From assembly GCA_001604585.1 (NCBI GenBank), contig LVBW01000012.1:1-41068 (forward strand): a stretch of DNA of 41,068 nucleotides, in the 5' to 3' direction. Positions within the stretch are counted from its first letter, which is position 1; each line of letters opens with the position of its first letter. This document shows, one piece after another, positions 13,920 to 25,143 of this stretch. Origin of the DNA: Puniceicoccales bacterium Verruco_02. Its GTDB lineage: Bacteria; Verrucomicrobiota; Verrucomicrobiia; Opitutales; Oceanipulchritudinaceae. The notes beneath the pieces were generated by a model that saw only the letters and a program-made list of their open reading frames with translations, ran no database searches and was not told the DNA's origin. The translations under genes were made by a program, and so were the position numbers.

Positions 13920-16900
13920 ATGCGACTCACACACGCCCTTCTTATATCACTGGGCCTGATAGCACCATCAATGACGTTCGCCCAAGCTGGCGACGCCTCA
14001 CAGGCACAGGTGCCAGGCAGCGCCAAAGGCATTCTCTCCGGCAAGGTGGCAGATACAGCCACCGGCAGAGGCATATCCGGCGTATCCGTGTCGGTGCTGT
14101 CCACCGGGCAGTATGCCACGACAGACATCGACGGCAGATACCGCATCGCGGATGTGCCCGCCGGACTTCAGACAGTCACCTTTTATAAAGGCGGCTACGA
14201 ATACAGCCAGATAAAGGATGTTTCTGTTGCAGAGAGCGGAGTGTCTCGTGCGGACATTTCTCTTGTGGCCCGTCCTTATTCGGACGTGGACGAGTTCGGC
14301 AGCGATGACGACATCGTGCTTTTGGACGCAATCACGGTTGTGGCCGAGCAGATGCAGGATAGCCAGATCGGCCTCCAGCAGTTCCGCGCAAAGTCGCTCA
14401 ACGTATCCGACGCCATCGGCGCGGAGGACTTTTCCAAGCAGGGCCTTGGCGACGCTGCCGAGGCAATGAGCCGCGTTACAGGCGCCAGCGTGATGGAGGG
14501 CAAATACGTGGTTATCCGTGGTCTTGGCGATCGCTACGCCAACACGCAGATGAACGGCGTGGCCATGCCAAGTGCAGACCCGGACAAGCGCGCCGTGCAG
14601 ATGGACCAGTTCCCGACCGACCTACTGGAGAGCATACAGACCTCCAAGAGCTTCACTCCGGACCTGCCGGGCGACTTTGCGGGCGGCAGCGTGAACATCC
14701 GCACCAAGAGCTTCCCAGACCAGTTCTTTGCCAGCACATCCGTTTCCATCGGTTACAACAGCAACGTTACCGGCAAGGACATACTGGCCACTTACGAGGG
14801 CGTTTCTTTCGACGGCATCGACGCTGGCAATCGCTGGGCACCGGCTACGCCCGAGGGCCTTGTGACGCCGCAGAGCGCCTACAACTATGCCCGCGCAAGC
14901 GTCAACCCATCGCTGGAACCGGCCAACATACTGAGCGATTACAGCAAGCAGTTCCAGAACAGCATGTTCCCTAAGACCGTGAGCGCCAAGCCCAATTACG
15001 GCTTCTCGGTGGCCACGGGCGGTCAGAAGCAGTATGACAAGGAGGGACGCATCGGCTACACCTTCAGCTTCACATACGACCGCAAGAGCGAGGGCTTCGA
15101 CGACGGTTACCTGGCCAGTTACAGCTCGCTCGAAGTGCCGAAGTTCATCTACGACACCGACCCGGCCAACTTCTCCTTCAGCGACAGGCTGGAGGGCAAG
15201 ACCCTGCCTTGGGGAGACAAGACCCCTTGGGGCTACACCAAGAACGTGCAGAGCGTCAACTGGGGCGCGTTCGGCAAGCTGGCCATACAGACCAGCGCGA
15301 ACAACGAGGTGACTCTCGACCTCTATCACAACCAGTATGCAGAGGACGAGGTGCGCCGCGGCGTTGGCGTGCAGCCCGAGGACTACCCCTCGATGGTGTA
15401 TGAAAACTACTCGATGCTCTACACAGAGCGCGGCATGTCCAGCGTGCAGCTGCACGGCAAGCACACCCTTCCCGCCCTTGGCGAAACAAGGGTTGACTGG
15501 ACCACTTCGTGGAACCGCAGCACGCAGAAGCAGCCCGATTTTCGCGTGTTTCAGACCCTTTACGACCTCGACACCGAGTCCTATTCCACCAACACGACCT
15601 TCCCGCCCTCGCGCTACTTCCGCGACATGGACGAGATAAGCAAGGACGGCAAGATGGACATATCCGTGCCGCTCAAGCTCTTCGGCGAGCATGAGAGCAC
15701 GATCAAGTTCGGCGGCCTGTATTCGTTGGCTAACAGAACATACACCGAAGACCAGTACACCGTATATTTTGGTCGCGGCAGCACGGCCATCACGAGCTGG
15801 GCACAGGAAAGCTCGCTTTTTGCCCCCGAAACAATCGGCCTACTTGGTGCGACCGACAATGGCAGGGGCGGCTGGATAACCGACTTCGGATGGACGGTGT
15901 TCCCCGTCAACACCTTCGTATCCAACTACACTGGCAGGCAGGAAGTTAGCGGCAGCTATGCGATGGGCGACATCGTGATCAGCGAACACTGGCGTGTGAT
16001 GGCCGGAGCGAGGGCCGAGCACACGGGTATGAGCGTTACCACGTTCTCCAATTCGACTGGCAGTGTGGACAGCAAGGCCCACATCCTTCAGACGGACGTG
16101 CTCCCCGCCTTCAGCCTTATTTACACCTTCCGCGAGGGTATGAACCTTCGCTTTGCCTACGGTGCCACAGTGGCGCGTCCCACCTTCAAGGAGCTTACAA
16201 GCGCCCGTTTATACGACCCTTTCCGCCGCGAATACTATCAGGGCAATCCGGACCTTATCATGACCACGATCGACAACTTCGACGTTCGCTGGGAATGGTT
16301 CATGGAGCGAGGCCAGATGGTGGCCTTCAGCGCCTTCTACAAGAGGCTTGAGAACCCCATCGAGGTCATGTTCCTCGACAGCATCGCCGGTGGTTCTTCC
16401 ACGGGAACGAACGTCATAAGCCCCGTAAACCGCGAGGAAGCCACCGTACGAGGTATCGAAGGAGAGTTTCGCTACGAGCTGGGCAACCTCAGCTCTTGGC
16501 TCGAAGGCTTCACCTTTGGCGGCAATGCGGCGCTCATTGATTCCACAGTAAGCGGCGGGGAATACCACCTGCACACCATACCCGACTCCAGCCTCGTTGG
16601 TCAGTCCCGCTACATGGTCAATGCCAACCTGACCTATCAGAACTTCGCTTGGGGGAGCGCCATTACGTTGGCCGTCAACAAGGTTGGCGAGCGCCTCGTG
16701 GCCTTCACTCCTCCCGACGACGACCTTCCGGATGTGTACGAGCTGCCTCCGATGACGCTCAACCTCATCTATTCGCAGAAGCTCTGGAACGGCCTGTCCA
16801 TGAAGCTGAGCTTCGGCAACCTACTTGACTCCCAGTACGAACGCACCCTCGGCAAAAGCTCCGACATCCTGATGGAGCGCTACAAGAAGGGGCGCAGTGT

Positions 16901-16928
16901 GGGCCTGTCGCTCAACTACAGTTTCTAG
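13920..16928 (+). CDS. TonB-dependent outer-membrane receptor with carboxypeptidase-like N-domain
   Basis: A 1002-aa outer-membrane transporter. The signal peptide is MRLTHALLISLGLIAPSMTF AQA. A CarboxypepD_reg-like beta-sandwich spans about residues 35-125 (GKVADTATGRGISGVSVSVL ... DIDGRYRIADVPAGLQTVTF). The plug domain spans about 140-260 (VMEGKYVVIRGLGDRYANTQ, then DLLESIQTSKSFTPDLPGDF, GGSVNIRTKSFPD). A 22-strand barrel ends in GRSVGLSLNYSF with the terminal Phe used for insertion. Energy comes from TonB/ExbBD, encoded elsewhere. The substrate is unknown. The next gene, 40 bp downstream, encodes a secreted repeat protein, so the two probably act as a unit on the cell surface. Confidence 0.93.
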   Translation: MRLTHALLISLGLIAPSMTFAQAGDASQAQVPGSAKGILSGKVADTATGRGISGVSVSVLSTGQYATTDIDGRYRIADVPAGLQTVTFYKGGYEYSQIKDVSVAESGVSRADISLVARPYSDVDEFGSDDDIVLLDAITVVAEQMQDSQIGLQQFRAKSLNVSDAIGAEDFSKQGLGDAAEAMSRVTGASVMEGKYVVIRGLGDRYANTQMNGVAMPSADPDKRAVQMDQFPTDLLESIQTSKSFTPDLPGDFAGGSVNIRTKSFPDQFFASTSVSIGYNSNVTGKDILATYEGVSFDGIDAGNRWAPATPEGLVTPQSAYNYARASVNPSLEPANILSDYSKQFQNSMFPKTVSAKPNYGFSVATGGQKQYDKEGRIGYTFSFTYDRKSEGFDDGYLASYSSLEVPKFIYDTDPANFSFSDRLEGKTLPWGDKTPWGYTKNVQSVNWGAFGKLAIQTSANNEVTLDLYHNQYAEDEVRRGVGVQPEDYPSMVYENYSMLYTERGMSSVQLHGKHTLPALGETRVDWTTSWNRSTQKQPDFRVFQTLYDLDTESYSTNTTFPPSRYFRDMDEISKDGKMDISVPLKLFGEHESTIKFGGLYSLANRTYTEDQYTVYFGRGSTAITSWAQESSLFAPETIGLLGATDNGRGGWITDFGWTVFPVNTFVSNYTGRQEVSGSYAMGDIVISEHWRVMAGARAEHTGMSVTTFSNSTGSVDSKAHILQTDVLPAFSLIYTFREGMNLRFAYGATVARPTFKELTSARLYDPFRREYYQGNPDLIMTTIDNFDVRWEWFMERGQMVAFSAFYKRLENPIEVMFLDSIAGGSSTGTNVISPVNREEATVRGIEGEFRYELGNLSSWLEGFTFGGNAALIDSTVSGGEYHLHTIPDSSLVGQSRYMVNANLTYQNFAWGSAITLAVNKVGERLVAFTPPDDDLPDVYELPPMTLNLIYSQKLWNGLSMKLSFGNLLDSQYERTLGKSSDILMERYKKGRSVGLSLNYSF

Positions 16929-16968
16929 TCTGTCTGTATCGAACTAACCCGATAATAGCAAACACCAT

Positions 16969-18486
16969 ATGAATAAGATAGTAATCGCGCTAATGGGTGT
17001 GGTCGCCAGCTTTGGCAACCTGGGCGCCCAGACGCCCATCCCCAACAAGATCAGCACCAACCTCACGCTGACGGCCAACAGCGAGTATCTGCTCTCCGGC
17101 TACACCTACGTGATGCCCGGCTATACGCTTACAATCGAGCCTGGCGTTACAATATATGCCGAAGAAGGCACCGGTTCCAGCGCTGCAGCCCTGGTTGTCA
17201 CCCGCGGTGCCCGGATCCATGCCGAAGGCACATCCACCAATCCCATCGTCTTCACCTCGATTCTCGACAAGACCGTGGGCAACCTCGATGCCGACGACAC
17301 CGGCCTCTGGGGCGGTGTGTGCATACTTGGCAACGGCATCTTGAACTCCAACAAGAGCGGTAGCTTCTCCGGCGACTATCCCACCAACGACATCGAAGGC
17401 TTCATCCCGGCCAGCGGCGACGAAGGCCTGATCAACTACGGCGGCAGCGACAACAGCGAAAGCTCCGGCGTGTTCCGTTACGTGTCCCTGCGCCACGGCG
17501 GTGCAATCATTTCCGAAGGCAATGAGATCAACGGTCTGACCCTCGGCGGCGTCGGCTCGGGCACGGTCATCGACCACGTCGAAGTGTACGCCAACAAGGA
17601 CGACGCAGTCGAAATTTTCGGCGGCGCAGTAAGCCTCAGCCACATCATCTGCGCCTTTGCATACGACGACGGTCTCGACCTTGACCAAGGATGGCTGGGC
17701 CAGGTGCAGCACCTGTTCGTCATCCAGCGCGCCGGTCAGGGCGGCAACACGGACAAGGGCGACAAGGGCGGTGAATGGGACGGCAACGACAAGCCCACGA
17801 CCCGCGGCCCCAAGATGCTGCTCCAGCTCGCCAACGCGACCTTCATCGGCATGGGTACAGAGTCCTCCAACACGGCCATCAACATTCGCGCAAACGGAGC
17901 CGCAGAGGTGTACAACAGCATCTTCATCGAGTACAACAAGATGCTCCAGATCGACAAGGACAGCGACAGCGCCACCTACAACCGTTTCCTCGCTGGCGAG
18001 AGCAAGTTTGAAGGCAACATCTGGTACAGCAGCACCCCGGCCAACAACACCGTGACCGGTCTTGCCGTGACAGGTGAAGCATATTGCAGCCCTCTTGACG
18101 CATTCTTCAGCGGTACAAACCAGATTGTTGACCCCGGCCTGACTGTTTCCCGCGTCCTTGGCGCACAGGCTCTCGATGTGCAGCCCGCCCTCAACAGTGC
18201 TGCCGTGACAACGGCCACCGCCAATGTGCCTGCCGGTCTTACCAAGACCAGCTACAAGGGCGCCTTCGACCCCTACTACAACTGGGCCACCGGCTGGACC
18301 AAGCTCTACAACGACGGCTACTTTGTCGCCAAGGGCACTTGGTTCGACCATCCCGAATGGGGCTGGATCTACCTCGACAGCGGCGCTCTTGAGAATGGCT
18401 CCTACGTCTATTTCAAGAACACCGACCAGTGGATCTGGGTTGCCGCTTCCGACGCTTCCGGCTACTGGACCTACCTGTTCAAATAA
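16969..18486 (+). CDS. Secreted, probably right-handed beta-helix protein paired with the TonB receptor
   Basis: A 505-aa exported protein with signal peptide MNKIVIALMGVVASFGNLGA and cleavage near AQT. Short repeats rich in Gly, Asn and Val (YTLTIEPGVTIYAEEGTGSS, LVVTRGARIHAEGTSTNPIV, RYVSLRHGGAIISEGNEING, HVEVYANKDDAVEIFGGAVS) have the look of a solenoid/beta-helix. Asp-rich loops (YDDGLDLDQGW, DKGDKGGEWDGND) could bind calcium. The last 45 residues are aromatic (WFDHPEWGWIYL, QWIWVAASDASGYWTYLFK) and resemble a separate tail domain seen in surface proteins. It is in one operon with the TonB receptor. Binding or presentation of its substrate is inferred; no catalytic motif is seen. Confidence 0.75.
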   Translation: MNKIVIALMGVVASFGNLGAQTPIPNKISTNLTLTANSEYLLSGYTYVMPGYTLTIEPGVTIYAEEGTGSSAAALVVTRGARIHAEGTSTNPIVFTSILDKTVGNLDADDTGLWGGVCILGNGILNSNKSGSFSGDYPTNDIEGFIPASGDEGLINYGGSDNSESSGVFRYVSLRHGGAIISEGNEINGLTLGGVGSGTVIDHVEVYANKDDAVEIFGGAVSLSHIICAFAYDDGLDLDQGWLGQVQHLFVIQRAGQGGNTDKGDKGGEWDGNDKPTTRGPKMLLQLANATFIGMGTESSNTAINIRANGAAEVYNSIFIEYNKMLQIDKDSDSATYNRFLAGESKFEGNIWYSSTPANNTVTGLAVTGEAYCSPLDAFFSGTNQIVDPGLTVSRVLGAQALDVQPALNSAAVTTATANVPAGLTKTSYKGAFDPYYNWATGWTKLYNDGYFVAKGTWFDHPEWGWIYLDSGALENGSYVYFKNTDQWIWVAASDASGYWTYLFK

Positions 18487-18532
18487 GCTTCCGATAGCAT
18501 AGGTTTATACAGGGGATACTCTCCTCTTGCAA

Positions 18533-18563
18533 AGAGGCCGCCGGTGAAAAACCGGCGGCCTCT
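18533..18563. terminator. Bidirectional hairpin between convergent genes
   Basis: Perfect 13-bp stem, AGAGGCCGCCGGT (18533-18545) and its complement (18551-18563), with a 5-nt A-rich loop. Only short T content follows on either strand. Its place between the convergent beta-helix and glycosyltransferase genes suggests it serves both. Confidence 0.75.
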
Positions 18564-18578
18564 GTCATATACGGAATG

Positions 18579-19295
18579 TCAGGCTTGCATGGTCTCGCAG
18601 TCCTGCCTCATGAGGGGTTTGGCCTCCGGCCCTGCGTAGTGCACAGCCCATGCTTCGCTCCTGGCTCCGGCACTTTCCCAGCCTTCGTGGCCGGGCAGGA
18701 AGTTTGCCCTTGGGTCCATATATGTGCGGGGAAGGCGGGCCGCTGCGCTATGGTAGTTCAGCGCCGTCTGGTCCGGCCAGCGCCCCGGCAAAAGTCGTGA
18801 CGGGTCAAAGCTCAATAGCTCCCTGTGCGCCCTCGATAGAACCAGCAGTCCGGCGTTGAAATACGGCTGCAAGGGCTGGGGCAGGGCACTGAAACGCTTT
18901 TCCATAGCGGCCATTTCCTCGTCTCTTTTCCACATCTGTTCGCCTGCCGGGTCCGCCACAACGCCTAGGCACTCTTCCGGCACCATTGCGAAAAGGTCGG
19001 GGCAGCGCGGCGAAATAATCAGGTCGGCATCGGCGTACAGGATGCGTTCGTATTGTTCCAGCATGGGGCCTATCTGGAACTTCTCAAGGTGCAGGTTCAC
19101 GCGGGGCTTGCGCCACTGGAGCCGGTGGCGGATGCGCCGCTCGGTAATCGCGATGTAGGTGCAGCCCGTGCGCCGCGCATAGGCCTCGAAAAATGGCCCG
19201 GACATGGCCAGCCACTCCGCACCCTGCCTGCCCAGAGCCAGCGTCACAAGTGCCTTCTGCGGCTCTTTGCTGCCTGTTGAAATCTGCTGCTGCAT
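18579..19295 (-). CDS. GT8-like nucleotide-sugar glycosyltransferase
   Basis: A 238-aa cytoplasmic protein with a GT-A-type fold by motif. The DxD metal/nucleotide-sugar site is YERILYADADLIISP (about 83-97). LEKFQIGPML before it, PYFNAGLLVLSRAHRELL (about 147-164) and the later WPDQTALNYH stretch with its Asp are the usual landmarks of GT8 and related families. HEGW and AVHYAGPEAKP near the end resemble the acceptor-side His motif. No signal peptide is present. Its ATG shares one base with the stop of the SPT-like gene (TGATG), implying coupled translation and a linked product. The sugar and acceptor are unknown. Confidence 0.78.
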   Translation of the reverse strand: MQQQISTGSKEPQKALVTLALGRQGAEWLAMSGPFFEAYARRTGCTYIAITERRIRHRLQWRKPRVNLHLEKFQIGPMLEQYERILYADADLIISPRCPDLFAMVPEECLGVVADPAGEQMWKRDEEMAAMEKRFSALPQPLQPYFNAGLLVLSRAHRELLSFDPSRLLPGRWPDQTALNYHSAAARLPRTYMDPRANFLPGHEGWESAGARSEAWAVHYAGPEAKPLMRQDCETMQA

Positions 19296-20494
19296 CAGAG
19301 CTTTTTCCCGAGAGCCTTGGCTATGGCGGCGCAGGCGCGGTCGATGTCGGCATGTGTGAGCCTTGCCGAAACGGCGGTGCGAATAAGGTCGCGGCCCGGC
19401 GGCACGGCTGGCGATATGGCCAGCACTGTGAATATGCCCTCATCCCAGAGCTTCTTCCACACGTAGTATGCCCTCTCGCGGCTGCCCATCACTAGCGGCA
19501 CGGCGGGCGTCTCGCTGCCCCAGGTGTCCACGCCCAGCGTGGCCAGTTGCTCCTTGTAGTAGCGGGTGTTGTCCCAGAGCCTTTCGATGTGCTCGGGCTC
19601 GCTTTGGATCAGGTCCAGAGCGGCTTCTGCGGCGGCGGCCTGCGCAGGAGCCAGAGCGGCGGAAAATATTGTCTGCTTTGAATGGGTGCGCAGGTATTCG
19701 ATGGCGTCACCGCTGCCCGCCACAAAGCCTCCGGTGCTCGAGAGCGACTTGGAGAGGCTCCCGCAGATTACGTCCACATCGTCGGTCAGGCCGAAGTGTG
19801 CCGCCGTTCCACGACCCTTGCCCATCACGCCAAGGCCGTGCGCGTCGTCCATCACGACGAAGCAGCCCCTTGGCCTAGCCACATCCAGCAGGGCGGGCAG
19901 GTTGCAGATGTGCCCCTCCATCGAGTACACGCCCTCGACGAGCAGCATCGCGGGCGTCTTTTCCGGCTCCGCAGCGAGCACGTTGGCAAGGTCCGCCGCG
20001 TCGTTGTGGGCAAAGCGTTCGTAACGGGCGTTGGACTGTGCCACCCCGCTCCATAGGGAGGAATGCACGTTGCGGTCCACGGCGATGAAGTCCCCGCGCG
20101 TGGCAAATGTGGCCGGGGCGCTCATGCAGGAAAGATACCCCGCAGAGCTGAGGTGGCATGCCTCCTTCCCCAGAAACGCGGCCAGCTTTTCCTCAAGCCT
20201 TGTGTGATAGGCGCGGCTGCCGTTGGCAAGGCGTGCCCCTGTGGGGCTACTGCCCCATTCGTCAATGGCCTTTCGGGCCGCTTCCACGAGCTTGGGGTGT
20301 TCGCCAAGGCCGAGGTAGTCGTTGCTGGCCAGCATGAGCATGTCGCGCCCGTCCACAGTGACCGTGGCCCCCTTTTGCGCCTGTGCGCCGTGATACCAGA
20401 TGGCGAACTTGCGCCGCATTCGCGTTGCCTCGTCGCTTTCGATGCGGCGGCGTATGGCGCCCTTGTCTGTCTTGCCTTTGAATAGTCCCAGCAT
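19295..20494 (-). CDS. Serine-palmitoyltransferase-like alpha-oxoamine synthase (PLP)
   Basis: A 399-aa PLP enzyme of the fold-type I alpha-oxoamine synthase group (SPT, BioF, Kbl, HemA). The PLP Lys is K249 in CGSLSKSLSSTGGFVAG. D217/H219 sit in VMDDAHGLGVMGKGRGTAAH, His144 stacks on PLP, and LASNDYLGLGEHP is the N-terminal signature. The stretches HFGLTDDVDVI, SKSLSSTGGFVAG and QSEPEHIERLWDNT look closer to bacterial serine palmitoyltransferases than to BioF (from memory, not alignment). SPT condenses serine and an acyl thioester to 3-ketosphinganine. No other biotin gene is nearby. An upstream TAAAAT lies 6 bp before the ATG. BioF or Kbl activity remains possible. Confidence 0.82.
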   Translation of the reverse strand: MLGLFKGKTDKGAIRRRIESDEATRMRRKFAIWYHGAQAQKGATVTVDGRDMLMLASNDYLGLGEHPKLVEAARKAIDEWGSSPTGARLANGSRAYHTRLEEKLAAFLGKEACHLSSAGYLSCMSAPATFATRGDFIAVDRNVHSSLWSGVAQSNARYERFAHNDAADLANVLAAEPEKTPAMLLVEGVYSMEGHICNLPALLDVARPRGCFVVMDDAHGLGVMGKGRGTAAHFGLTDDVDVICGSLSKSLSSTGGFVAGSGDAIEYLRTHSKQTIFSAALAPAQAAAAEAALDLIQSEPEHIERLWDNTRYYKEQLATLGVDTWGSETPAVPLVMGSRERAYYVWKKLWDEGIFTVLAISPAVPPGRDLIRTAVSARLTHADIDRACAAIAKALGKKL

Positions 20495-20581
20495 TGCCTG
20501 ATTTTAAGCCTTCGCGGGATGGAGCATCCCATGCCGCTGCGTTCCACTATGTAACGGCGGAAACGGGGAAATGTCGCGCGA

Positions 20582-21244
20582 TCAGAACATTTCGAGCTGT
20601 CCGGCCGCGTCTTTGCCGGAGGAGCTGTGTTCGACAAGCCAGCGGAGTGATAGATCTTCGTAACCGGGCAGGCTGCCAAGATGCATCAGCAGCAGCGCGC
20701 TGCCCAGCGCGTCGTACAGGGCGCAGTGTGGGCGGCGGCGCTTTTCCGGACAGTGGACGGCGGCCAGTTCATAGAGCCTTTCGCGCAGGCCGAAGGTATC
20801 CAGCAGAGAGGACAGGCCGTAGTCGCCAAGGTCGGGGTAAATTACTTCGTACAGGCGCAGGGTGTCGATCCAGGGCCCCCAGTCGGCAAGCTCCGCTCCG
20901 GGGCAAATGAAGTCCGGCGAAAGACGGGGGTAGGGCCACTGCGCCTTCAGTAGATGCTTTTCAAAGCCCGCGTTGTGCGCAGAGAGCGTTCCGCTGCCGC
21001 GCAGGCTCATGAACAGCTCCATGTCCTCTGCAAATGGCGCAGCGCCTGCCGTTTCCATCCGGCTTAGGCCGTGAACCCGCGTCTCGGCCTCTGGTATGGC
21101 GCATATGGGCGCACAGATGCGGGTGTGTGTGCTCAGGATGGTGCCGCCGGACAGGCTTGCCACGCCGTATTCGACTATGCCCGAGGCGCGGCTGCCTTCG
21201 AAGTCGATTACTTGCACCGGGCAGTCTGTCCAGTGTCCGTTCAT
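20582..21244 (-). CDS. DEDD-family 3'-5' exonuclease (DnaQ-like)
   Basis: A 220-aa DnaQ-type exonuclease domain protein. ExoI is VQVIDFEGSRASGIVEYGV with D14 and E16. ExoII is LSAHNAGFEKHLLKAQW, where Glu stands in the place of the usual Asp after HNAxF. ExoIII is PHCALYDALGSALLL with His and Asp, so it belongs to the DEDDh subtype if the Glu substitutes. The start ATG (complement of 21242-21244) overlaps the surE stop as ATGA; the frame open to 21304 runs inside surE and is not needed. Such stand-alone proteins act in DNA proofreading/repair or RNA trimming; the substrate is not evident. Confidence 0.85.
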   Translation of the reverse strand: MNGHWTDCPVQVIDFEGSRASGIVEYGVASLSGGTILSTHTRICAPICAIPEAETRVHGLSRMETAGAAPFAEDMELFMSLRGSGTLSAHNAGFEKHLLKAQWPYPRLSPDFICPGAELADWGPWIDTLRLYEVIYPDLGDYGLSSLLDTFGLRERLYELAAVHCPEKRRRPHCALYDALGSALLLMHLGSLPGYEDLSLRWLVEHSSSGKDAAGQLEMF

Positions 21245-22014
21245 CGACGCCCCAGACGGCTGAAGTCCAATAGGCCGATGCTTATGCGCCCGGAGCTGAC
21301 GCATTCGCGGTCGCTCTCCACTTCGCCGGGTATGGTGGCCCCGGTGGCGAAGCGGAACCTGAATTCGCCCTCCTTTTCGCTTCTTACGTAGAGGCCGAAA
21401 GGCTCCACCGCGGCGGGCAGGGTACGCACGATGGGCGTTGCCGCGTCTACCTTGGGCGGGTAGTTGAGGTTGTGGACAAGATAGCGCTCGCCGGGCAGTT
21501 TTACCAGTTCTGCGGCAAAGGCAGCGGCGTGCCGGGCGATGTTGCGCACGTCCCCTTCCAGCTCTTCTGGCACGTTAACGTTGTCCTCGTGCAGGCGGGC
21601 GAAATACTGCGGAGGTACCATCACGGACACCGCCAGCGCTGGCAGGCCCCACATCGCTCCCTCTATGGCTGCGCCGAGGGTGCCGGAGCAGAGGATGAAG
21701 GGCACCCCGGCGTTGTAGCCGATGTTCATGCCGCTTATCACGATGTCGGGCCTGCGCTCCAGCAGGTGGTCTAGGGCGATGTTGATGCAGTCCGTGGGGG
21801 TGCCGTCCACGCTCCATGCCGGGACGCCCATTCCGTCCACTCTTGCCGTCTGTACGGGGGTGCGGCGGCTCATGGCACGGCCTATCCAGCTCTGCTCGCG
21901 CAGGGGGGCGGCCACGATAACGTCAAAATGTTCGGGCAGGGCTTCGACAAGGGCGCGCAGGTAAAAGCTGCCTATGCCGTCGTCGTTGCTTACAAGGGCG
22001 AGGGGCTTGCTCAT
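21241..22014 (-). CDS. surE: 5'/3'-nucleotidase SurE
   Basis: SurE (257 aa) is a metal-dependent phosphatase for nucleoside monophosphates, active in stationary-phase survival and nucleotide salvage. The metal site is VSNDDGIGSFYLRALVEAL (N10, D11, D12). The other family signatures are VAAPLREQSWIGRAMS, GTPTDCINIALDHLL, ISGMNIGYNAGVPFILCSGT LGAAIEGAMWG, and NLNYP in LVHNLNYPP. It overlaps the exonuclease by 4 nt and follows the unknown gene by 10 bp, so all three form an operon. Confidence 0.95.
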   Translation of the reverse strand: MSKPLALVSNDDGIGSFYLRALVEALPEHFDVIVAAPLREQSWIGRAMSRRTPVQTARVDGMGVPAWSVDGTPTDCINIALDHLLERRPDIVISGMNIGYNAGVPFILCSGTLGAAIEGAMWGLPALAVSVMVPPQYFARLHEDNVNVPEELEGDVRNIARHAAAFAAELVKLPGERYLVHNLNYPPKVDAATPIVRTLPAAVEPFGLYVRSEKEGEFRFRFATGATIPGEVESDRECVSSGRISIGLLDFSRLGRR

Positions 22015-22024
22015 CGTCGTTGTG

Positions 22025-22522
22025 TTACTGAAGGCCCTGCTGCTGGAACAGGCGCTGAAGCTCCATCTGGAACTCGCGCACGTCTTCCTGCACGGGGCGG
22101 TAGTTCTTGTCCGCGCAGTCGAGGCCGAGGCGGCCCATCTGGTCCAGATACCACTTGGCGGACACTCCGTCGCTGAATGTGACCTGTCCGCTCATCATGG
22201 TGCCGGGCATCTTCAGGCGGTCCACGCTTACGCTGACGCCAGCGGGCAGCAGTTCTTCCACCTCGTCGGCTTCTTCCGGCTCCACTTCGGCAGGTTTTGG
22301 CTGCGGCGTGGCCTTGGCGGGGCTGCCCAGCTCTATGTTGTTGTCGTCCAGAAAAAAGCGCAGCTGCATGTAGGTCATGCGGATGTCCAGATCCCGTTCG
22401 AGCTGCTTCTGTATTTCCGAGAGTCCCTTGCCGGAGGCTGCCCAGCCGCGTACAAGCTCTGTCTGTTCTTGTGTAAGTGCCATTGCTGTTGGTGGGGGGG
22501 ATTGTTGTGGCTGGTCGGGCAT
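22025..22522 (-). CDS. Conserved-looking hypothetical protein upstream of surE
   Basis: A 165-aa soluble protein. Residues 14-60 (MALTQEQTELVRGWAASGKG LSEIQKQLERDL ...) read like a helix-turn-helix or small helical domain. An acidic/Pro linker (about 70-92) follows, then a beta-rich C-terminal part (VSVSVDRLKMPGTMMSGQVT FSDGVSAKWYLDQMGRLGL). ATG 22522 or ATG 22483 may be the start; neither has a clear Shine-Dalgarno site. I do not recognise a named family. It lies first in the operon with surE and the exonuclease and directly behind a terminator hairpin, so it may be expressed through a regulated leader. Confidence 0.7.
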   Translation of the reverse strand: MPDQPQQSPPPTAMALTQEQTELVRGWAASGKGLSEIQKQLERDLDIRMTYMQLRFFLDDNNIELGSPAKATPQPKPAEVEPEEADEVEELLPAGVSVSVDRLKMPGTMMSGQVTFSDGVSAKWYLDQMGRLGLDCADKNYRPVQEDVREFQMELQRLFQQQGLQ

Positions 22523-22566
22523 AAGGTCAAGCGCCCTGACGCCTTCCTGCGCATTGCCGCGTACAT

Positions 22567-22612
22567 AAAAAAGGAAAGGCCCGGCGATAACCCCGAAACA
22601 CCGGACCTTTCC
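22567..22612 (-). terminator. Strong intrinsic terminator or attenuator upstream of the surE operon
   Basis: On the minus strand a 12-bp stem (arms 22601-22612 and 22573-22584, one G-T pair) with a 16-nt loop is followed by six T residues (22567-22572). It ends 45 bp before the ORF start at 22522. Confidence 0.85.
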
Positions 22613-22846
22613 TACCAGTAATCCCGAATCCGAGATTCAGAGATTGTGTTTTGTTCCCCTATGGAGAGCTAGTCTCCGTCTGCCCCAAGTTGATGCAGCA
22701 CTTGTACCAATTACCTCATAGTTGGGATTATGGGCGATTTTTGTTAGCCCTGTTCTCATGCGTGTCCGGTGGACGCACGAGGGCGTTATGAGCTGCGCAT
22801 TTCTGGCCAGCTCGAACAAATCGCGCGAGAGTTGTTGAATGGCAGG
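22567..22846 (-). ncRNA. Candidate structured RNA or leader, family unknown
   Basis: About 280 nt on the minus strand between the divergent NtrC-type gene and the terminator at 22567. The only open frame (TTG start at 22849, 70 codons) has about 49% GC at third positions, far below the real genes nearby, so it is unlikely to be coding. Several stems can be drawn: AACAA/TTGTT around a GC-rich apex; GCCC/GGGC enclosing TCGTGCG/CGCATGA (about 22750-22785); CCAA/TTGG; CAAGT/ACTTG; GGAGA/TCTCC; and AATCTC/GGGATT with inner GAATC/GATTC just before the terminator. A CATAAT at 22848-22853 could be its -10. I see no tmRNA, SRP or RNase P signature. Either a free small RNA or a 5' leader of the surE operon. 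Confidence 0.5.
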
Positions 22847-22897
22847 CAAATTATGCCTACATTAGCGACTTGACCGGACAGGGAATCGCCCAAGCCC

Positions 22898-24319
22898 ATG
22901 CCCTTCGAAAAAATCCTAGTTCTCGACGACGAGCCGATTGTTTGCCGCACGCTTCAGAGCCAGCTGCGGCGCAAGCGGTACAATGTGGCTGCTGTGGCCA
23001 GCATTGCCGAGGCGGAGCGCGTGCTCGCAGCCGATCATTTCGACATGCTCTTCATGGACCTGCGTCTGCCCGATGGCGACGGAACCCAGCTATTGGAGAG
23101 GGTGGCCAAGCAGCCGGACGCGCCTTTTGTCGTCGTAATGACCGGCTACGCCACAGTGGAGAGCGCCGTCAACTGCATGAGGCTCGGCGCCTTCGACTAT
23201 ATTATCAAGCCTTTCTCCAACAGTCAGATAGAGATTACTATCCGCAAGGCCGAGCAGTACCACCACATACTGAACGTGGCGCGCTTCTTTGCCAAGGAGG
23301 ACTTGAATGACACGGAGATAATTGGCGAGAGTCCTGCCGTCCGCAAGGTGCGAGAGCTTATCGAGCGCGTGGCCCGCACCCATGCCACGGTGCTTATTCA
23401 AGGCGAGAGCGGCACGGGTAAGGAGCTTATCGCCAACGAGATACACAAGCTTTCGCCGCGTTCTGGCGCGCCCTTCATCCGGGTGAACTGCGCGGCCATT
23501 TCCGAGACACTCATAGAGAGCGAGTTTTTCGGGCACGAGAAAGGTGCCTTCACCGGGGCCACGGCGCGGCGCGAGGGGCGCTTCGAGTTGGCGGACGGGG
23601 GCACGATATTGCTCGACGAAATAAGCGAGATTTCCCTGCCCCTTCAGGCCAAGCTCCTGCGCGTTCTTCAGGAAAACCAGTTCGAGCGGGTGGGGGGCAA
23701 CAGTACCCTCCAGGTCGATGTGCGCGTCATTGCTACTACCAACCGCAAGCTCGTCAAGAGCGTGGAGAAGGGCGAGTTCCGCGAAGACCTTTACTACCGC
23801 CTGAATGTGTTCCCGATACATAACCCGCCCTTGCGCGAGCGCAAGGAAGACATTCCGGGGCTTGCCCGCGCATTTGTCGAAAGGGCCGGGCGCAAGCACG
23901 GGGTAAAGGTGCGGGGCCTTTCCAATGCCTCGATGGCGAGCCTGCTTCGCCACGACTGGCCGGGCAATGTGCGCGAGCTTCAGAACATGATAGAGAGGGC
24001 GGTGATACTCACGGGCAGCGATGCCCTTATCGAGCCGCCATCGCTGGGGCTCGGCGGGCAGGAGCATGGCGAGGAAGCCGCGCCTCATGCTCCGCAAGGT
24101 AGTCAGATGATACTTTCTGACGAGATTCTGCCTATGGAGGAGGTTGAGAAGAGCTGCATTCTCAACGCCTTGCGCGTCTGCGGGGGCAATCGTACCCATG
24201 CGGCAAAGGCTCTTGGCATATCTCTTCGAACGATGCGCAACAAGATCAAGGCCTATCGAGAGAGCGGTATGGACCTGCCAGAGCCTGCCGCCGGTGCCGA
24301 CGATGGCGAGGAGGCATGA
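22898..24319 (+). CDS. NtrC-family sigma-54-dependent response regulator
   Basis: A 473-aa transcription activator with three domains. The receiver (1-120) has D10-D11, phospho-acceptor D54 in FMDLRLPDGDG, T82 and K104. The AAA+ domain has Walker A GESGTGKE (169-176), the sigma-54 contact loop GAFTGA (216-221), Walker B GTILLDE (235-241) and the arginine-finger stretch REDLYYRLNVFPI. The C-terminal Fis-type helix-turn-helix is NRTHAAKALGISLRTMRNKI KAYRE. Its intact GAFTGA shows it drives RpoN promoters. The HTH resembles flagellar regulators of the FlgR type, which would fit the sigma-28-family gene at 13 kb. The partner kinase is not in the window. Confidence 0.94.
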   Translation: MPFEKILVLDDEPIVCRTLQSQLRRKRYNVAAVASIAEAERVLAADHFDMLFMDLRLPDGDGTQLLERVAKQPDAPFVVVMTGYATVESAVNCMRLGAFDYIIKPFSNSQIEITIRKAEQYHHILNVARFFAKEDLNDTEIIGESPAVRKVRELIERVARTHATVLIQGESGTGKELIANEIHKLSPRSGAPFIRVNCAAISETLIESEFFGHEKGAFTGATARREGRFELADGGTILLDEISEISLPLQAKLLRVLQENQFERVGGNSTLQVDVRVIATTNRKLVKSVEKGEFREDLYYRLNVFPIHNPPLRERKEDIPGLARAFVERAGRKHGVKVRGLSNASMASLLRHDWPGNVRELQNMIERAVILTGSDALIEPPSLGLGGQEHGEEAAPHAPQGSQMILSDEILPMEEVEKSCILNALRVCGGNRTHAAKALGISLRTMRNKIKAYRESGMDLPEPAAGADDGEEA

Positions 24320-24345
24320 GGTACAGTGAGGCGGAGCTATAATCC

Positions 24346-25143
24346 ATGTCACCGATGAGTCAGTTTGAGAAGAACATCAATGCCGACTACCTTCGCCGTT
24401 CTGGCGATGCCTTGCAGGGGCTTAAGCAGCTTAGCTACTCGCTTATGAACCTGCCGGAGGCGGAGCGTGTGCTGGATGTTGGCTGCGGAGTGGGGCTGGA
24501 TCTTGCACCAATGCTCGCGCGTATGCGCGGCGATGGTGTGGTGACGGGGCTGGACCTTTCCGAAAAGATGCTGGCTGAGGCAGCACGACTCGTCATGGAG
24601 CAGGGCTTGGAGGAGCGCATAGAGCTGGTGCGTGCTTCGGCGATGAAGCTGCCCTTCGCCTCGGGGTACTTCGACGCAGTGCGTGCGGAGAGGCTTTTTC
24701 AGGTAATATCGCCTGAGCAGTGCCCACCGCGTGAACTGCTTGGCGAGCTACTGCGGGTTGTTCGTCCTGGCGGTCGCATCGTTCTGGCGGATACGGACTG
24801 GGCAAGTGCCTCTCTGGACTTTCCCGACATCGAGCTTGAACGGCGTATGATGGACTTTTTTGCCCGCCGTTGCAGACCGAGCGGTTTTGCGGCGCGGCAG
24901 TTTCGCGCATGGCTCTTGGACGAGGGCTTGCATGAGGTGGAGATTCACATTTTGCCTCAGCCCATGTTCAGCATGGAGAATTGTCCCCTCTGCGCATGGC
25001 TGGCCGATGAGGCGCTCCGGCAGGGCCTTGTCGGCGAGCGGGAGGCCCGCCTATGGATGGGTCACATATCCGAACGCAGCGCGGCAGGCAGTTTCTATGC
25101 CTGTGCTAACATGCTCGTTGTGGCGGGGACTCTTGTCCGTTGA
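24346..25143 (+). CDS. SAM-dependent class I methyltransferase
   Basis: A 265-aa cytoplasmic methyltransferase. Motif I is VLDVGCGVGLDLAPML (42-57), followed by the acidic end of strand 2 (VTGLDLSEKMLAEAARL), the motif II-like region RASAMKLPFASGYFDAVRAE and the post-motif RPGGRIVLADTDWAS. This pattern fits the Methyltransf_11/UbiE-like group. The C-terminal part has CPLCAWLADEALRQGLV, which does not identify a substrate. The ATG at 24346 or the one at 24355 may be used; a TATAAT at 24338-24343 lies directly before them. It is only 26 bp after the NtrC-type gene but may have its own promoter. Confidence 0.85.
   Translation: MSPMSQFEKNINADYLRRSGDALQGLKQLSYSLMNLPEAERVLDVGCGVGLDLAPMLARMRGDGVVTGLDLSEKMLAEAARLVMEQGLEERIELVRASAMKLPFASGYFDAVRAERLFQVISPEQCPPRELLGELLRVVRPGGRIVLADTDWASASLDFPDIELERRMMDFFARRCRPSGFAARQFRAWLLDEGLHEVEIHILPQPMFSMENCPLCAWLADEALRQGLVGEREARLWMGHISERSAAGSFYACANMLVVAGTLVR

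Follow-up and report, generated by a model that had tools for sequence, protein, structure and literature searches.

Vibrio encodes qrr1 beside luxO, and the CrcZ RNA of Pseudomonas, which is longer than the RNA considered here, carries repeated short motifs and binds Hfq/Crc through A-rich repeats. The Qrr sRNAs are short and sigma-54-dependent and are switched by the NtrC-type response regulator LuxO (PMC10162802), and CrcZ and CrcY are transcribed from sigma-N promoters under the NtrC-type activator CbrB, which is encoded next door; CrcZ acts by titrating a protein (PMC8871633). A further point of comparison is RepG of Helicobacter pylori, for which the excerpted account describes a gene beside an orphan response regulator and a functional loop, identical with the terminator loop, that is C/U-rich and pairs with mRNA at G-repeats; no sigma-54 promoter is reported in that excerpt (PMC8295292).

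The locus analysed here lies on the minus strand of a stretch of 41,068 nucleotides (the window) of an uncultured verrucomicrobial bacterium, between the surE operon and a divergent gene for an NtrC-type response regulator, and quite probably is a free-standing, enhancer-dependent sRNA gene with a trans-acting product. It is like the Qrr system in its short RNA, its predicted sigma-54 dependence and its candidate NtrC-type activator, and unlike it in having no Rfam match, in being present as a single copy, in having a neighbour that varies by family and in belonging to another phylum. With RepG, as far as the excerpt describes it, the locus shares a terminator loop as the probable working element and a response-regulator neighbour, but the loop is G-rich here. 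It resembles CrcZ in its sigma-54 promoter and in the NtrC-type gene next to it; unlike CrcZ, the RNA carries one or two G-rich motifs in about 114 nt, and in place of the multiple GGA motifs in hairpin loops that mark the CsrB/RsmZ type its loop has GGGGUU, in one or two copies. By analogy, it most likely works like Qrr or CrcZ while being unrelated to them by sequence. The features of the locus are collected in the table, in which G000 is the genome of the window and G001 and G002 are genomes of the same genus.

Table. Predicted features of the sRNA locus and its surroundings; positions are those of the window unless another locus is named.
Feature	Position	Strand	Remarks
NtrC-type response regulator gene	22898..24319	+	Pfam: receiver, Sigma54_activat with GAFTGA, Fis-type HTH (HTH_8); candidate activator
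Regulator-gene promoter, sigma-70-like, TTGAAT-17-TACATT	22835..22863	+	Similar layout in G001 and G002
Palindrome GGCAAATTATGCC (GGCA-N5-TGCC)	22845..22857	.	Inside regulator promoter; candidate enhancer or autoregulatory site
Sigma-54 (-24/-12) promoter TGGTACAAGTGCTGCA	22694..22709	-	GG and GC elements 10 nt apart
Predicted gene of the sRNA (about 117 nt)	22567..22683	-	Start inferred 12 nt past the -12 element, +/- 2 nt
Hairpin 1 GGAGACTAGCTCTCC	22663..22677	-	G001 has a hairpin of different sequence at the same place
First G-rich motif M1 ATAGGGGAAC	22653..22662	-	Many relatives have TTRGGGGTAAC, unpaired
Hairpin 2, AATCTCG-GATT-CGGGATT	22620..22637	-	G001: TATCCCGGATCCGGGATA; G006: AATCTCG..CGGGATT
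Terminator hairpin	22572..22613	-	Stem 22599-22613 with 22572-22586
Terminator loop TTTCGGGGTTAT	22587-22598	-	Carries the conserved GGGGTT motif (M2)
T6 tract of intrinsic terminator	22567..22572	-	Read from the sequence
surE operon promoter, sigma-70-like, TTGACC-18-AACAAT	22501..22530	-	Separate; downstream of the terminator
First gene of surE operon	22025..22483	-	Probable true start 22483; without Pfam family
Sibling RNA loci	L213-L229, L232 (e.g. L220:188-270)	- (L220)

Sigma-54 promoters were scored with an ad hoc consensus score, for which a threshold of at least 17 was used; in 41 kb, a few chance matches reach a score of 17. The element upstream of the predicted RNA is among the top five matches in the window, and its counterpart at the same place in G001, TGGCACGGACGGTGCA, is nearly the sigma-54 consensus. 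The sigma factor itself, RpoN, is encoded in the genome of the window (PF04552, contig C16). From the position of the -24/-12 element, the RNA is predicted to start near 22683 and to be about 117 nt long. At its other end the minus-strand terminator (22613-22567), which is separated by 45 bp from the ATG annotated at 22522, had been described in the earlier note as a 12-bp stem with six Ts and as part of a possible surE attenuator; the stem and the six Ts are present, with 14-15 bp and a 12-nt loop, whereas the attenuator role did not hold, as discussed below. The start near 22846 that had been proposed for the transcript also did not hold, as neither of the two same-genus genomes shows conservation of the minus strand at 22846-22710; to judge from its sequence, this part instead holds the promoter from which the divergent regulator gene is read.

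The suggestion of a structured transcript with at least six stems was borne out in part. The whole 280 nt fold better than shuffled sequences (z of -3.4), but without the terminator the values are -2.3 for the long version and -1.0 for 22684-22613, so that most of the excess comes from the terminator and drawable stems alone are not evidence of structure. Conservation is limited to the 3' part of the interval and to G001, in which hairpin 2 and the terminator are 77% identical; this block and the sigma-54 promoter are kept, and the remaining spacer is not. No homologue of the 70-aa TTG frame, conserved translation of which would have spoken for a protein-coding gene, was found in the same-genus loci, and the non-coding status of the interval therefore stands. 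An intrinsic terminator is accompanied by the absence of a conserved reading frame, as would be expected of a sigma-54-dependent sRNA.

The RNA was followed through the order with covariance models, in a sample of genomes from one large order that includes many MAGs. Model R1, built from G000 and G001 on 82 positions of the 3' part without the promoter, added one more relative, which lies behind amtB-glnK in G006 and again has a sigma-54 element. The R1 matches in G008 and on contig C11 of G010 were rejected as chance matches, as was a DNA match of the first search inside a gene on contig C50 of G043. Model R2, built from three sequences and with E-values from a shortened calibration, matched at E<=0.05 in 71 of the 273 genomes of the order, and the strong matches of the promoter-free model, spread over the order (Opitutales/Puniceicoccales MAGs, Verrucomicrobiota), number one to a genome. 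A sigma-54 element scoring at least 17 lies upstream of 29 of the 30 best R2 matches, or 26 of 27 once the three seeds are excluded; among random 170-bp windows, 5.6% have such an element. The sole exception among the best 30, L151, is a sibling RNA of sigma-70 type. Covariation, which the earlier note had named as a check, was found in the terminator helix: among 28 distinct sequences, compensatory changes occur at nine of the 11 core pairs and 98% of cells are paired, a level that controls made by shuffling or sliding do not approach, although shuffling makes no correction for relatedness. In the loop that this helix closes, GGGT is invariant and GGGGTT near-invariant.

In the family of the window, model R3 gave one match of at least 48 bits in each of ten genomes, all with a GGGG loop and a sigma-54 element within 150 bp, whereas inspection of 19 weaker matches showed ordinary terminators, none of which has a GGGG loop or the element (10/10 versus 0/19, Fisher 5e-8, three of the ten being seeds). 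A strong R3 match is absent from G002 and from six further genomes of this family. When the scan was extended to the class, every match above 45 bits fell in the order of the window, and the sigma-54 element accompanied ten of ten new matches with a GGGG loop versus none of five lacking the full GGGG loop; the matches outside the order, including the two best, are generic terminators without the full GGGG loop or the promoter.

Altogether, the sigma-54 type is represented in seven families of this order, by at least 41 genomes (including the later L230 and L231). All 41 members have an equivalent of the -24/-12 element upstream and suitably spaced from the RNA, and an alignment of 39 promoters shows TGG and GC without variation and the consensus TTGGCACG-N5-TGCT. 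The predicted RNAs are 80-158 nt long (median 114); their 5' half varies from family to family and can be aligned in part, and M1 is absent from roughly one quarter to one third of the members. RpoN was detected in 245 of the 273 genomes, and at such a high frequency its co-occurrence with the RNA carries no information; in G088, a 77%-complete assembly, the RNA is present and RpoN was not detected. Rfam 15, including tmRNA, SRP, RNase P, T-box, Qrr, CrcZ and 6S, gave no match above a gathering cut-off and noise at E up to 10, in agreement with the earlier impression that the RNA fits no known family. An identity with 6S RNA was rejected, the 6S gene of the genome lying elsewhere (contig C25, 62.4 bits). 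In our literature search this RNA family was not found described, nor was any sigma-54-controlled sRNA in Verrucomicrobiota. It is a previously undescribed sRNA family of a known kind, with the unusual features of a G-rich terminator loop, a duplicated motif and a sigma-70 sibling.

The position of the locus is conserved within families and not between them. The RNA gene is divergent from the NtrC-type regulator gene in G000 and G001, and elsewhere from genes of the sensor-kinase type, namely a HisKA gene in G010, a gene for a PAS and HisKA protein in three genomes of family f21 (one of which was profiled, the others being 58-68% identical to each other) and, in G018, a gene for a GAF/PAS protein, the end of which lies beyond the piece of G018 that was analysed. 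It follows glnK (amtB-glnK) in G006 and, as read from the flanking coding ends with no profile search, an HU-like gene in G005 and G012, a GH3-like gene in several f14 genomes and thiC in f4. A link to nitrogen control, considered because of the position in G006, was rejected, since no other genome of the family has the RNA after glnK. Most members have no adjoining NtrC-type gene. Upstream of the sigma-54 promoter, the f21 loci L149, L150, L153 and L176 have a conserved AT-rich block like CTCTATTGTAAAAAATTTGTTTGTC, a possible family-specific enhancer.

In the genus of the window, the divergent NtrC-type regulator is the probable activator. Its orthologues within the genus are 79-84% identical; it scored below every cut-off of the NCBIfam equivalog models (AtoC, NtrC, ZraR, LuxO and others), and a search of viral contigs with it matched nothing. 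The palindrome in its promoter, the site of which is also given as GGCAnAATTTGCC, recurs in the promoters of the regulator gene in G001, G002, G005 and G012, and thus also outside the genus. Relative to the sigma-54 promoter it is located some 150 bp upstream (-149 in G000, -160 in G001). A location at about -150 would suit an enhancer, and the site could also serve autoregulation of the regulator gene. The palindrome matrix did not find the palindrome at other sRNA loci, and neither the inverted-repeat count nor this matrix yielded an enhancer motif shared across the loci. A paralogue with 64% identity (contig C32 of G000) has GGAAAATATTTCC in its promoters. Five matches to GGMAAANNTTKCC are clustered on one strand within 10 kb of contig C78 of G000 (14145-24384), and small clusters of this type are also present in G001 (contig C34) and G002 (contig C25).

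The weaker R2 matches revealed a second, strongly conserved RNA in 17 genomes of family f14 and one of f11. Its layout is a hairpin, TTTTGGGGTAACTAAG and then a terminator hairpin with a AGGGGTAA loop, and it has the same two GGGGUAA motifs as the sigma-54 RNA in an otherwise different sequence. In f14 it is preceded by a TTGACG -35-like element and no sigma-54 element, with the exception of L216, which has a distant sigma-54-like match; one genome, G267, has both the sigma-54-type and the sigma-70-type RNA. Rfam gave no credible match for this sibling. The nearest model, anti-hemB RNA (RF02837), is alike in having a hairpin followed by a terminator hairpin, but it scored 23.7 bits against a cut-off of 49.5 and lacks the GGGG motifs, and the likeness was treated as chance. 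Since the pair of G-rich motifs is common to two otherwise different RNAs, the function of both may well reside in this motif. On a broader reading, to which we give somewhat less than an even chance, the order has a common system in which sigma-54 and sigma-70 sRNAs, each with GGGGUAA twice, would address one common partner, either an RNA-binding protein or C-rich mRNA sites, so that two signals would converge on one post-transcriptional regulon.

The earlier note had offered two readings, a free small RNA and a riboswitch-like or attenuated leader of the surE operon, and the evidence now strongly supports the former, with its own sigma-54 promoter, its terminator and its homologues at unrelated loci. 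As a leader, the transcript would start near 22846 and read conditionally through into 22522, and the terminator does lie on the appropriate strand, with 45-85 bp between it and the first operon gene. However, a conserved promoter that belongs to the operon itself follows the terminator, and GCGCTTGACCTT of this promoter is kept in G002; this sister genome keeps the operon and its promoter without the RNA or the terminator, the homologues of the RNA adjoin unrelated genes, and the stretch from which the leader would start lacks conservation, all of which renders the leader very improbable. The gene order of the NtrC-type regulator and the divergent small gene with surE is kept in both G001 and G002. 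Homologues of the first protein of the operon begin at about residue 13 of the annotated protein, which together with the promoter at 22530-22501 places the real start probably at 22483; the annotated start at 22522 would then be 13 codons too early, and the extra stretch overlaps the operon promoter. This protein of about 150 aa, encoded upstream of surE here, is conserved order-wide (49 of 55 relatives have it) and belongs to no Pfam or NCBIfam family. It is scarcely credible that the terminator just ends spurious antisense transcription from the regulator gene beside a chance -24/-12 match: intrinsic terminators are common and the promoter score is of a kind reached by chance in a sequence of this length, but promoter, loop and helix recur jointly at unrelated loci, in seven families and 41 genomes, the promoter was sought at these other loci and was present, and ordinary terminators of the same genomes lack it.

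Within the reading as a trans-acting sRNA, the mode of action could be that of a sponge, the sigma-54 RNA titrating a protein that recognizes GGGGUAA-type motifs, as CsrB/RsmZ or CrcZ do with theirs, and not acting as an antisense RNA. The G-rich motif occurs twice in most members, once in a hairpin loop and once unpaired, and exactly these two motifs are kept in the sigma-70 sibling; sponges, however, usually carry many motifs and not one or two per RNA, and the motif is neither a CsrA-type GGA loop nor an A-rich Hfq/Crc site. We regard this possibility as less likely than not.

For the free-standing sRNA gene we infer the following course of events. Minus-strand transcription by RNA polymerase with sigma-54, from about 22683, would require an NtrC-type activator in its active state, which in this genus would likely be the divergent regulator acting through the palindrome, and transcription would stop at the intrinsic terminator at 22567. 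The RNA of about 117 nt would fold into two or three hairpins and present GGGGUU/GGGGUAA in the terminator loop and, in most relatives, again in single-stranded form. It would most likely act in trans and post-transcriptionally through these G-rich motifs, which may pair with C-rich mRNA sites or be bound by a protein, and a two-component signal would thereby be passed on to the control of translation or mRNA stability.

In conclusion, this analysis describes an sRNA family that is recognizable from sequence alone by the combination of promoter, helix and loop, and that, being single-copy and conserved in the order, offers a way into post-transcriptional control in a phylum in which little is known of it. 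The findings suggest that the layout of an sRNA beside an NtrC-type regulator, as in Vibrio and Pseudomonas, recurs far outside the Proteobacteria, and the GGGG loop together with the sigma-70 sibling leads to a specific and directly testable hypothesis, namely that the G motif has one shared partner.
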